Source: Anaerolineae bacterium
GTDB lineage: Bacteria; Chloroflexota; Anaerolineae; B4-G1; SLSP01
Length of the DNA: 39,166 nucleotides
Direction of reading: 5' to 3'
Assembly: GCA_025454475.1 (NCBI GenBank)
Contig: JALOOJ010000030.1
Span: 1-39,166, forward strand
The stretch's first letter is position 1; each line of letters starts with the position of its first letter. Of this stretch, positions 14,790-22,312 are shown in pieces. Position numbers and translations under genes: made by a program. Below the pieces are notes generated by a model. The model did no database searches. It was not told the DNA's origin and was given only the letters and a program-made list of their open reading frames with translations.

Positions 14790-14825
14790 ACAAAGGGCCT
14801 GCGGCGTATGCCGCAGGCCCTTTGT
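14790..14825 (-). terminator. Long perfect hairpin after the SIMPL lipoprotein gene
   Basis: ACAAAGGGCCTGCGGC (14790-14805) and its exact complement (14810-14825) form a 16-bp perfect stem with a GTAT loop. It lies 11 bases past the stop of the minus-strand SIMPL gene. The A/T ends of the stem supply a short U-tract in either direction. It also insulates the enolase-superfamily gene, whose SD begins about 45 bases further on. Confidence 0.88.
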
Positions 14826-17250: not shown

Positions 17251-17322
17251 TGGGGCGTGGCCAAGTGGCAAGGCGACGGACTTTGAATCCGTTTATCGCA
17301 CGTTCGAATCGTGCCGCCCCAG
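17251..17322 (+). tRNA. tRNA-Gln (anticodon TTG)
   Basis: A full cloverleaf can be drawn. The acceptor stem TGGGGCG pairs with CGCCCCA, with discriminator G at 17322. The D-arm is GCC-AAGTGGCAA-GGC, the anticodon stem ACGGA/TCCGT carries loop CTTTGAA (anticodon TTG), the variable loop is TTATC, and the T-arm is GCACG-TTCGAAT-CGTGC. U1-A72 with discriminator G is typical of bacterial glutamine tRNA. The 3' CCA is not encoded (CCT follows). No duplicated tRNA end or integrase was seen nearby, so there is no sign that it serves as an integration site. Confidence 0.96.
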
Positions 17323-18527: not shown

Positions 18528-19628
18528 GTGGCATATGATGACCTCTGCTACCAGGCGCTGATGGGGCTTGCGCCCAAGGATATTCCCCACTGGGAGTATC
18601 TCGGCTGCCCGCAGGCCGAGACGGTCATCACGGGCATCGACTACTTCGAGCATCCTCGCCAGTGCCGTCTGCGGCTCGCTGCGATGTATCCCAAGCTGAA
18701 CGTGGAGATCCCCGAGACCGATGATCCGGTGAAACGGCCCGACCTGGGACTGACCCACGACACCATCGGCGAGGACGAGCACGGGCGCCGCGTGGTCCGT
18801 TGGGGCAATAGCGTAACCCATCACTGGGATAGCGATCCGAGGTTCAAGACGGTCGAGGATGTGTTTGCTTTCTCCCCATTGGCGGAGCCCGACTGGACCG
18901 ACAGCTATATCGTGACCACCTGGGACTTCACCAGTGAGGAGACGCTTTACCAGCACTTTCGCAAGAACTATCCTCCGGAATGGGGAGATAAGGCACCTGA
19001 GGGTTCACCGGCCAACGTTGGTATGTACCAGACGATGTTTATGTGGCCTCTGCTTACCTTTGGATGGAAGCTCTTCATGGAGGCTTGCCTTGATCCGCGC
19101 TTCGAGCGGGTAATGGACGAATTCGCCGAGCTCAACCGCCGTCTGTTCCGGGCCTTTGCTCGGCTGCCGATCAACTTTGTTCACTGTCACGACGACATCG
19201 TCAACACGCGGGGGCCGGTCTGTTCGCCGAAGTGGATGCGCAAGTACATCTTCCCGCGGTATGAGGAGTTCTGGGGGATCGTCAAGGATGCCGGTAAGGA
19301 AGTGACCTTCATCTCCGACGGGTGCATGGACGCATTTGTCGACGATGTGGTCGCCTGCGGGGCTCGTGGGCTCCTGGGCGAGCCCTACAACGACTACAAA
19401 GCGATTGCCCGAAAACACCAGGACTGTTTCCTGACCGGCGAGGGTGACACCCGCGTATTATCGAGGAACAACCCGGACGAGATCAGGGCGATGGTTGAGC
19501 GCATGGTGGAGACATCTCGGATGACCGGGGGCTACTTTATGCGCATCGGCAACGAGTTCACCTGGGCAACGCCTCCTGAGGCTGTGAAGCTTTACCTCGA
19601 TCTGAGCCATGAGCTAGCGCATCGATAG
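18528..19628 (+). CDS. Uroporphyrinogen-decarboxylase-like (URO-D family) protein
   Basis: This 366-residue cytoplasmic protein starts at GTG 18528 after GAGGCGACA. The fold is that of the URO-D superfamily: a TIM barrel with FVHCHDDIVNTRGPVCSPKWMRKYIFPRYEEFWGIVKDAGKEVTFISDG and, near the end, LSRNNPDEIRAMVERMV. These segments match the group of URO-D relatives that are corrinoid-dependent methyltransferases or unknowns in anaerobes. The MRxAGR and other haem-pathway residues of true HemE are absent, so a haem role is unlikely. It lies 84 bases after the activase gene and may share its transcript. A structured, convergent boundary follows. The substrate is not known. Confidence 0.82.
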   Translation: MAYDDLCYQALMGLAPKDIPHWEYLGCPQAETVITGIDYFEHPRQCRLRLAAMYPKLNVEIPETDDPVKRPDLGLTHDTIGEDEHGRRVVRWGNSVTHHWDSDPRFKTVEDVFAFSPLAEPDWTDSYIVTTWDFTSEETLYQHFRKNYPPEWGDKAPEGSPANVGMYQTMFMWPLLTFGWKLFMEACLDPRFERVMDEFAELNRRLFRAFARLPINFVHCHDDIVNTRGPVCSPKWMRKYIFPRYEEFWGIVKDAGKEVTFISDGCMDAFVDDVVACGARGLLGEPYNDYKAIARKHQDCFLTGEGDTRVLSRNNPDEIRAMVERMVETSRMTGGYFMRIGNEFTWATPPEAVKLYLDLSHELAHR

Positions 19629-19658
19629 GTTCTGGGGTTGCTGATCGCCTATCACAGT

Positions 19659-19838
19659 GTGGGCCGGGACGCCTGTCCCGGCCAAGCGACGAGGCGCGCT
19701 GCTTACTGAGTACGGCGAACCGGTGTGCCTGCATCCGGAACGGGCTTTCGCCTCCGGGCGGAAAGGGGCCTCCCGACGGAGCGAGTGTGCCACACCGAGC
19801 CACGCCTTGTCGCGGGCGAACAAGACAGTTCGCCCCAC
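19659..19838. repeat. 180-bp folded palindromic element between convergent genes
   Basis: The two ends are imperfect inverted copies of each other, and each carries its own hairpin: GGCCGGGAC-GCCT-GTCCCGGCC (19662-19683) and GGGCGAAC-AAGACA-GTTCGCCC (19814-19835). The stems differ in sequence but keep pairing. Further in, GTGGG (19659) faces CCCAC (19834), GCGAC (19686) faces GTCGC (19809), and GGTGTG (19722) faces CACACC (19791). The centre has another stem, CTTTCGCC-TCCG-GGCGGAAAG (19745-19765). It lies between the URO-D-like gene (+) and the helicase gene (-). It resembles a non-coding mobile (MITE- or REP-like) element that also serves as a two-way terminator. Confidence 0.75.
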
Positions 19839-19846
19839 AACGCAGA

Positions 19847-22312
19847 TCAGGCGGGGCGCTGCTGGAGGAACGCCGCCACGTCGGCGAAGTCGGTGGTGTG
19901 GCAGCTCTCGGGCAGCGAGCGGATGATCTGTTGGCCGTAGCGCTTGTGAAGAACCCGTCCATCGAGCAGGGCGATGACACCCCGGTCGGTCTCCGAGCGG
20001 ATCAGCCGCCCGGCTCCCTGCCGTAGGTTGAGAATGGCGGATCCGAGCTGTAACTCGTAGAAAGGGTTGCCGCCGCGGGCACGGATCTGTGCCTCCTGAC
20101 GCTGGATCACGGGGTCGTCGTACGGGACGAACGGGATCTTGTCGAGGATCACCAGCGCTAGCGCATCGCCGGGGATGTCCAGTCCCTCCCAGAATCCGCG
20201 GGTCGCGAAGAGGATCGCGTTGCCGTCCGCCTGAAACCGCGCGACGAGCTCCGGCTGGGCATAGTCGCCCTGGAGATAGCAGGGATAGCGTGTGCGGAGG
20301 ATGGGTGCCAGCGCGTCATAGAGCTGCAGCATGCGTTGACGACTGGTGCACAGTACGAGTGCCCGCCCGCGGCTCATCTCCAGCAGTCGCCTGACCTCCT
20401 CGGTAAGCTGTTGTACGTAGCCGTCTGAGAAGGACTGCGACTGTTCGTCGTACACCGGTGTCAGAGCGCGCGGTGTGTAGAGTACCATCTGTCGTTGGTA
20501 GTCGAAGGGTCCCCGAATCGCCTGAGAGATAACGTGTGCGGCCCCCTCTCCGTCTGCAGATGGGAGCCCGATCTGGCGCTTGAACCAACCCAGGTCGTTG
20601 TTGACGCTGAGTGTGGCGCTGGTGCAAACAACGCGGGGCCATACCTCGAAGAGCATCCGCCGCAGAGGGTCAGCCACCTCCAATGGGCGGTAGAGCGCCT
20701 GGTAGGTCTCTTCGGCGCCCGGCATCGTTTCCTCAGCGACCTCGCAGAGACGGATATGGGTCTCCGGCTCCGGGAGGGCCAAGGCCCGGACCGTTGTTGC
20801 CAGCTCCTCAACTTGCATCACGGCGGCGTCACGGTCGCCATCGTCCAGCTGTGGGGCGTTGATCAGCGCGCGCTGGACGTGGTTTAGGATGTCCCAGAGG
20901 GCCAGCCCGGCCTGAACCTGACCCTCGAGGGCCCAGCGAGGAGGGCGCCCGTTCGTCCTGGCTCGTCCGGGACGCTGCTGCTCCACGGCGCTGAAGAACT
21001 CGTCGTAGCCCGTGCGCGCCTCGACGAGGAGATCGGCGTCTGATACGCCACCGCGCACGGTAGGGTTATTCATCAAGCTCCAGAAAAGGTCGTGGCTCAG
21101 CGCCATCGTCAGCGCCTCGACAGCGTAGCGCGGCAGCTGGTGCGCCTCGTCGACGATGAGCATCGGGCGAACGGGAAGAATGTGGTTCTCGGCGAGCAAG
21201 GCATTGTAGCAGAGGAGGGCGTGGTTGGTCACTACCAAGTCGGCGCCCAAAGCTTCGCGTTTGGCGGCCTCGTGGAAGCATCCATCAAAACGCGCGCAGC
21301 GGTGCCCCTGGCAGTCGTGTCCCCCGACTGTGATACGTGCCGCAAGCTCAGGTGGCAGGCGCATCATCTCCACGTCGCCCGAGGGCACGGCCTCCAGACC
21401 CTTTCGCACGAGGCTGAGCATAGCGGGCTGGTTCGGGTTCCCCACCTGCTGGTGCAGCCGCTCCAATCGCAGCGCACAGATGTAGTTACTGCGCCCCTTG
21501 AGTAGCGCAGCCTTCATCGGATGGGGTGCAAGCTGCTGCAGTCTAGGGATGTCTTTCTCCCAGAGCTGGTTCATCAGCCCCTTGTTTGAGGTGCTAACCA
21601 CGGCCTGCGCGCCGGACCACAGAACGGGGATCAGGTAGGCAAAGGACTTACCGATGCCGGTCCCCGCCTCGATGACGGCGTGGCTGCGTCCCTGGAGCGC
21701 GTCGCGGACGAGGTGCGCCATCTGCGTTTGGCCGGCTCGGGCGCGATAGCGATCACCGAGCAGCGCGGCGAGCGGACCCCCTGGGGCAAAGACGCCCTCC
21801 AGCGGCGGGCAGACGATGGGCCGCATCGTCGTGTCGTCTTTCGCATCGCCGTTCGGCGACCGGCGCTCCTTCGCGGCATAGACGGCTGCGGGTTCCTTGA
21901 CATAGTCCGGCGACTCGGGTCCTGCCTGCCGCGCATTGGGAGCACTCTTCGTGAGGACTCGTCCGCCCACCACGACCGCTGGCTCGGCACCCACCGGCAT
22001 CTTGGAATGCTCCGCGGGCCGCGGCTGGGGCGCAAGGGCAACTTGCATTGCCTCGAGCAGCGGCTTGGCCCGGGGCTCGCCGAGCTCGTGGGCGCGGGTG
22101 AGCGCCTGGGCGGCATCGTTCCAGCGATGACGCTGCCGATAACAAAGTCCCAGTTGGTAGTGGGCGTTGGCGTGGTCGGGATCGAGGCTCAGGATCTCGC
22201 GATAGGCCGCGATGGCCCCGTCCAGGTTGCCTTGCAGCAAGAGCTTGAACGCACGGCGCTCCTGGGCCCGGACAGCGATCTCGGTTACGTTCGCGTTCAG
22301 CCAACCCGACAT
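19847..22312 (-). CDS. DinG/XPD-type ATP-dependent helicase with N-terminal TPR segment
   Basis: An 821-residue protein. Residues about 14-80 form two tetratricopeptide-like repeats (LLLQGNLDGAIAAYREILSLDPDHANAHYQLGLCY), followed by a low-complexity linker to about residue 165. The superfamily-2 helicase core then has Walker A EAGTGIGKS (K222), four cysteines in YICALR, GHDCQGHRC and DGCF that fit the Fe-S cluster of XPD/DinG helicases, and VDEAHQ (D388). Late motifs include VLCTSRQRMLQLYDAL, ATRGFWEGLDIPG and RQGAGRLIRSETDRG. DinG-type enzymes unwind damaged DNA, R-loops or forked structures 5' to 3'. The TPR extension is not part of E. coli DinG and suggests a protein partner. It is read divergently from the peptidase gene, with overlapping promoters. 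Confidence 0.92.
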   Translation of the reverse strand: MSGWLNANVTEIAVRAQERRAFKLLLQGNLDGAIAAYREILSLDPDHANAHYQLGLCYRQRHRWNDAAQALTRAHELGEPRAKPLLEAMQVALAPQPRPAEHSKMPVGAEPAVVVGGRVLTKSAPNARQAGPESPDYVKEPAAVYAAKERRSPNGDAKDDTTMRPIVCPPLEGVFAPGGPLAALLGDRYRARAGQTQMAHLVRDALQGRSHAVIEAGTGIGKSFAYLIPVLWSGAQAVVSTSNKGLMNQLWEKDIPRLQQLAPHPMKAALLKGRSNYICALRLERLHQQVGNPNQPAMLSLVRKGLEAVPSGDVEMMRLPPELAARITVGGHDCQGHRCARFDGCFHEAAKREALGADLVVTNHALLCYNALLAENHILPVRPMLIVDEAHQLPRYAVEALTMALSHDLFWSLMNNPTVRGGVSDADLLVEARTGYDEFFSAVEQQRPGRARTNGRPPRWALEGQVQAGLALWDILNHVQRALINAPQLDDGDRDAAVMQVEELATTVRALALPEPETHIRLCEVAEETMPGAEETYQALYRPLEVADPLRRMLFEVWPRVVCTSATLSVNNDLGWFKRQIGLPSADGEGAAHVISQAIRGPFDYQRQMVLYTPRALTPVYDEQSQSFSDGYVQQLTEEVRRLLEMSRGRALVLCTSRQRMLQLYDALAPILRTRYPCYLQGDYAQPELVARFQADGNAILFATRGFWEGLDIPGDALALVILDKIPFVPYDDPVIQRQEAQIRARGGNPFYELQLGSAILNLRQGAGRLIRSETDRGVIALLDGRVLHKRYGQQIIRSLPESCHTTDFADVAAFLQQRPA

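Follow-up and report, generated by a model that had tools for sequence, protein, structure and literature searches.

Positions 19,659–19,838 are occupied by a small cluster of three hairpin repeats of the REP (repetitive extragenic palindrome) kind, which are non-coding mobile DNA, in an uncultured Chloroflexota bacterium. Very probably, the cluster consists of three GTAG/GTGG-tagged REP units, a type-B REP beside a head-outward heterodimer of units A2 and A1, that were spread in the single-stranded state by a REP-associated tyrosine transposase (RAYT). The identification as a GT[AG]G-tagged REP cluster with a REPIN-like heterodimer is based on the pairs of hairpins with fixed spacing, the copies of the stem, the expansion of this stem that is limited to congeners, and the RAYT genes that carry the hairpin in a sister genome (G003). 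The element is a new example of a reported kind of REP, known also in Chloroflexi, and not a new kind of element. The window, by which we mean the whole stretch of 39,166 nucleotides that was analyzed, is contig C68 of the source genome (G000), which comprises 4,807,223 bases in 369 contigs.

Units of the cluster and their gene setting

The type-B unit is located on the plus strand at 19,659–19,683 and consists of the head GTGG, a perfect 9-bp stem (GGCCGGGAC/GTCCCGGCC), and the loop GCCT; the hairpin proper, as delimited by a hairpin scan (9-bp stem, 4-nt loop), spans 19,662–19,683. The long-loop unit A2, also on the plus strand (19,710–19,752), has the stem GGCGAAC (with a single mismatch, in its 3' arm), a 25-nt loop that includes a 19-nt insert, and the head GTAC, which departs from GTRG. 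Unit A1, on the minus strand (19,814–19,838), combines the head GTGG with a perfect 8-bp stem (GGGCGAAC/GTTCGCCC) and the loop TGTCTT, and the scan places its hairpin proper (8-bp stem, 6-nt loop) at 19,814–19,835. A GT[AG]G-type head thus stands at one foot of the hairpin in two of the three units, B and A1. Together, A2 and A1 form the 129-bp head-outward, REPIN-like heterodimer (19,710–19,838), of which 8 copies in the genome could be aligned. The spacer between them (19,753–19,813) contains recurring blocks, CGACG.AGC and, on the minus strand adjoining A1, GCGACAAGGCG. In E. coli, inverted REPs of more than one type are combined into the mosaic clusters known as BIMEs, and with its B unit beside the dimer, the present cluster is a mosaic of this type in its layout.

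In the preliminary description, the stretch was presented as a symmetrical element with a fully paired hairpin at each end. Both hairpins are present, their stems are perfect, and they correspond to B and A1. The further view of the ends as inverted, imperfect copies holds for the exact 180-bp extent and the head-to-head arrangement; as to sequence, the likeness is loose, with 14 of 25 bases in agreement, chiefly in the GTGGG head and at the ends of the stems, since B and A1 are two distinct REP types, each of them self-complementary. The blocks said to face each other across the center do so in this copy, where GCGACGAGGCGC near 19,687 pairs with GCCACGCCTTGTCGC near 19,798–19,812, and are only partly kept in the others: at the spacer pairs of the inner unit, about 70–73% of the cells pair (72.8% in the 8-copy alignment).

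The cluster lies in a convergent gap, as had been proposed. A gene of the URO-D family (Pfam PF01208; 18,528–19,628, plus strand) ends at 19,628, and a gene with TPR repeats and a helicase (PF13307, PF00270; 19,847–22,312, minus strand) ends at 19,847. Probably, the cluster is tolerated in this position rather than needed. Elsewhere in the window, a perfect 16-bp hairpin of terminator-like appearance (ACAAAGGGCCTGCGGC...GCCGCAGGCCCTTTGT) is present at 14,790–14,825, between two convergent-side gene ends.

Copies in the source genome and in its relatives

A search of the source genome with the 188-bp query returned 46 places, including the query itself, most of the matches being partial. For the stem pattern GGCGAAC...GTTCGCC, there are 56 occurrences, compared to one for the reversed control, and the exact core of the B unit, GGGACGCCTGTCCC, is found in 5 places, with none for its reversed control; B-type variants occupy 7 places in the DNA examined. 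Words of A1 are among the commonest 12-mers in 417,022 bases made up of the window and sampled contigs, a sample for which contigs were picked partly because they contain matches. Another hairpin family in the same sampled DNA, AGACCTTTGAGCT...AGCTCAAAGGTCT (loci L047, L037, L048, and L052 of the source genome), equals the A1 repeat in frequency and possibly represents terminators.

The unit that recurs is the A2–A1 pair and not the 180-bp stretch. The 8 dimer copies, on contigs C68, C172, C353, C28, C175, C251, C343, and C76, align up to the edges of the unit, beyond which the flanks are unrelated. The stem starts are separated by 101 bp in four copies, by 100 bp in one, and by 120 bp in the three that contain the 19-nt loop insert, namely, the window copy and those on C172 and C353. 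Among the 13 head-outward pairs seen in the source genome, 8 have a distance of 100–101 or 120 bp, and the other five are spaced at 66, 70, 84, 150, and 192 bp. Tandem copies exist as well, for example, at C267:5459–5703, with one unit per 81–82 bp. At three loci of the source genome (L041, L006, and L026), the A stem encloses a long loop of another kind, which is GC-rich, is built around CCCGCGTCTGCGCGGGC, and parallels the 19-nt insert in the window.

The placement of the hairpins was assessed with our own crude gene calls, under which 86% of the examined DNA is coding. Of 61 placed hairpins of the A, A-long, and B types, 23 are in tandem gaps, 15 in divergent gaps, and 13 in convergent gaps, 2 are inside gene calls, and 8 are at segment edges, so that 51 of the 53 placeable hairpins are extragenic, apart from the 8 at the edges. 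Some entries in a list of 62 hairpins are recorded on the opposite strand, including several rows designated 'Alike', and orientation counts therefore do not draw on this list. The proposal of a family of non-coding mobile elements is borne out by the many copies, the pairs with fixed spacing, the mostly extragenic placement, and, in relatives, the location of the hairpins at transposase genes.

When 40 genomes, including the source genome, were searched as relatives, matches to the query were obtained in two, the source genome and G003. Counts of the A stem across 24 genomes of the family were 44 in the source genome, 18 in G003, 10 in G001, and 0–3 in each of the other 21, for which the reversed control gave 0–2. 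Hence, among these 24 genomes, expansion of the A stem is confined to the source genome and two congeners. An exact pattern scan of genome contigs yielded matches only in two contigs, from the Chloroflexi MAG UR.bin234. The element is absent from the orthologous gaps of four congeners, in which the arrangement of the genes or the sequence between them has diverged too far for an insertion point to be recognized. Both congeners with an expanded stem have head-outward dimers of their own: three were seen in G001, with 149, 151, and 150 bp between head starts and with other loops or stems, and in G003 a distance of 93 bp was seen three times, one base pair being swapped between the two stems (spans from 15 stretches, one of them from the source genome).

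Taken together, a constant REP stem, loops that exchange whole secondary hairpins (the 19-nt GC-rich insert and a second one similar in size), and species-specific dimers with fixed spacing bring to mind a scenario that we consider rather unlikely, namely, that new REP types arise in place through single-strand template switching, or RAYT-mediated strand transfer, at the hairpin loop. If this were the case, the diversification of REPs could be read from a single genus.

Folding and alternative explanations

The stretch from 19,655 to 19,842 folds better than dinucleotide shuffles of its sequence, both as RNA (z = −3.99, with none of 200 shuffles as good) and as DNA (z = −3.93, 1 of 200). This excess is chiefly due to B and A1, the end hairpins, which reach z = −4.73 and −4.47 in DNA folds on their own; for the inner 137 nt alone, z is only −1.07, and 23 of 200 shuffles are as good. 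All four of the other dimer copies that were tried fold as one long hairpin (DNA z from −3.2 to −4.3), compared to −1.07 for the copy in the window, which therefore looks decayed.

The differences between the two end hairpins had been read as compensatory, a sign that the fold is under selection. Across the copies, this interpretation is not supported, because pairing in the 8 aligned dimers is not above that in shuffles: under the structure of local hairpins, 83.0% of the cells pair, the same value as in shuffles (83.0%), and under the whole-dimer structure, 81.2% pair, compared to 82.3% in shuffles. In this alignment, the stem cells are near-invariant and the spacer pairs decay, and the covariation term of RNAalifold is unfavorable (+1.52). 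As a choice of REP types by their perfect stems would make a covariation test circular, a separate count was made in which each stem position in turn was left free, with no head required; the version that requires the head was set aside because it counts some palindromic sites twice. Stem positions 1–6 combined include 18 non-pairing cells compared to 3 with another Watson-Crick pair. Position 7 of the stem, by contrast, has 9 double swaps from C-G to G-C and no one-sided changes; this double change marks a subtype that has a paired stem of its own and is not copy-by-copy compensation. Such a pattern is what a few self-complementary types, together with neutral decay, would give. Because compensatory changes do not exceed those in shuffles in the 8 copies, we refer to the dimer as REPIN-like rather than as a REPIN.

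One alternative is that the cluster is a bidirectional transcription terminator, or an mRNA-stabilizing structure, of the two convergent genes, with the fold kept by selection. The convergent setting, the strong hairpins, the fold z of about −4, and the fact that one unit stops 9 bp short of where the helicase gene ends are all compatible with such a function. However, there is no T tract, and a scan for sigma-70 promoters and terminators detected no site within the element; hairpins of the family are also present in tandem (23) and divergent (15) gaps, compared to 13 in convergent ones; pairing across copies is no better than in shuffles; and the congeners examined lack the element in their orthologous gaps. 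We consider this explanation improbable, although the cluster may have a secondary role as a transcript end.

Even less probable is a MITE of a DDE-type insertion sequence, with the outer ends, B and A1, as its terminal inverted repeats. These ends are indeed inverted, and they pair in the RNA fold, but the B-to-A1 layout is not repeated over its full 180 bp, unlike the A2–A1 pair with its 8 copies, and the single other close B(+)...A1(−) pair that was seen, on C105, has a different content between the two hairpins. Moreover, each end is a self-contained hairpin that is found singly elsewhere, and the enzyme associated with the hairpins in relatives is a RAYT. A structured non-coding RNA gene is the least credible of the three alternatives: the predicted fold is stable, but the only Rfam match in the window is a tRNA (17,251–17,322), there is no excess of covariation, and the modules are reused separately.

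RAYT genes and relationship to known REP systems

A cluster of REP units spread by a RAYT thus remains the explanation that we prefer, and RAYT genes are encoded in the genus. In a search of the genus with the NF047646 profile (REP-associated tyrosine transposase), scores above the cut-off were obtained in four of the five genomes. L078 and L083 (both in G003), L079 (G004), and L084 (G001) form a group of RAYT-clade genes, the latter three being 48–60% identical to L078; three of the four score above the NF047646 cut-off of 80, whereas the remaining one reaches 74.1. L078 matches TnpAREP (PDB 4er8) with an E-value of 2.4e-5, across a region in which the HxH and Y..NPV motifs are matched.

The two RAYT genes of G003 bear an A-type hairpin on both sides. 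On contig C481 of this genome, the RAYT gene sits between two A hairpins with their heads outward, the same layout as in the A2–A1 dimer, with the gene replacing the spacer. Across the family, 400 bp on each side of the near-full-length genes of the RAYT clade were scanned for GT[AG]G-headed hairpins with stems of at least 8 bp, a procedure that gave 0 of 400 and 1 of 137 stretches in controls. Such hairpins were detected near 5 of the 12 genes, comprising all four within the genus (one of them with a hairpin on one side only) and one of the eight outside it; within the same 400 bp on each side, 7 of the 12 lack one. The hairpin stems differ from one RAYT gene to another.

In the assembly of the source genome, we found no close orthologue of the cognate RAYT, the best match being the protein encoded on contig C61, with 37% identity, and no RAYT gene flanked by hairpins of the type in the window, which are present at RAYT genes in the sister genome G003. 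The gene on C61 (L032; 1100–2230) is at the NF047646 cut-off and has a different hairpin, around GCGGGCATCCTTGCCCGC, on both sides. Given this low identity of the nearest protein and the other hairpin that flanks its gene, the matching RAYT appears to have been lost or to fall into a gap of the assembly. As a matching RAYT was not found in the source genome, we infer that the copies there are now largely orphaned.

Additional hairpins and transposase-like genes were observed in the source genome. The GCGGGCATCCTTGCCCGC hairpin represents a further repeat family and is also part of mosaics on C105 and C362. On C267 (L111; 10,400–11,400), a weak RAYT-like frame (30 bits) lies between two hairpins around CCAAGGACTTTCCGCAGTCCTTGG; translated with guessed ends, it had no match in Pfam and is probably the wrong frame. 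An IS200/IS605-type transposase gene (NF033573) on C332 (L031; 1360–2480) is located beside several other hairpins, including the GTAG-headed GTAGCCCGGCGATTTATCGCCGGGC, and a hairpin similar to GTAGCCCGGCGATTTATCGCCGGGC is present at C48:28131.

GTAG-tagged REPs, as described by Di Nocera et al. (2013; PMC3733652), are short, mostly intergenic palindromes with a GTAG-type tetranucleotide at one end that often form head-head (HH) dimers 20–100 bp apart, with heterodimers and hybrid dimers among them, and GTAG repeats were already described there in Chloroflexi (GTAG-23 of T. roseum). The cluster in the window resembles these repeats in head, size, dimer layout, and placement, and differs from those described in that report by the GTAC head of A2, the insert nested in the loop, and the uncultured Chloroflexota hosts (PMC3733652). 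REPINs, in the account of Bertels and Rainey (2011; PMC3116915), are inverted doublets of REPs that have a fixed spacing, form a long hairpin, are extragenic, and are linked to RAYT genes, and compensatory changes are reported in them. The dimer shares with REPINs the inverted doublet with preferred spacing and the extragenic placement; unlike in that account, compensatory changes are not seen across the copies here, the copies number in the tens, and the cognate RAYT was not found in the source genome (PMC3116915). In the REPtrons and TnpAREP systems as reported, a GT[AG]G head stands at the foot of the hairpin (PMC6006769, PMC8266576), and the RAYT genes of the genus are likewise flanked by GT[AG]G hairpins.

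By analogy with these systems, the units most likely spread as single-stranded DNA through a RAYT. Under the mechanism suggested by earlier studies of REPs, REPINs, and TnpAREP (PMC3733652, PMC3116915, PMC6006769, PMC8266576), the dimer would fold while single-stranded, for example, during replication, the RAYT, an HUH-tyrosine nuclease, would recognize the head and the hairpin and would cut and rejoin the dimer, and the unit would thereby be copied or moved into extragenic sites.

Our literature search identified reports of REPs in Chloroflexi and no paper on this genus, which is not proof that none exists. What the present analysis contributes is a genus of Chloroflexota whose related RAYT genes each have a GT[AG]G hairpin of their own version next to them. 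One species of this genus carries the repeats, but no RAYT that matches them was detected in it. The genus thus provides a compact natural series for the study of the co-evolution of REPs and RAYTs, and of how long REP populations outlive their transposase.
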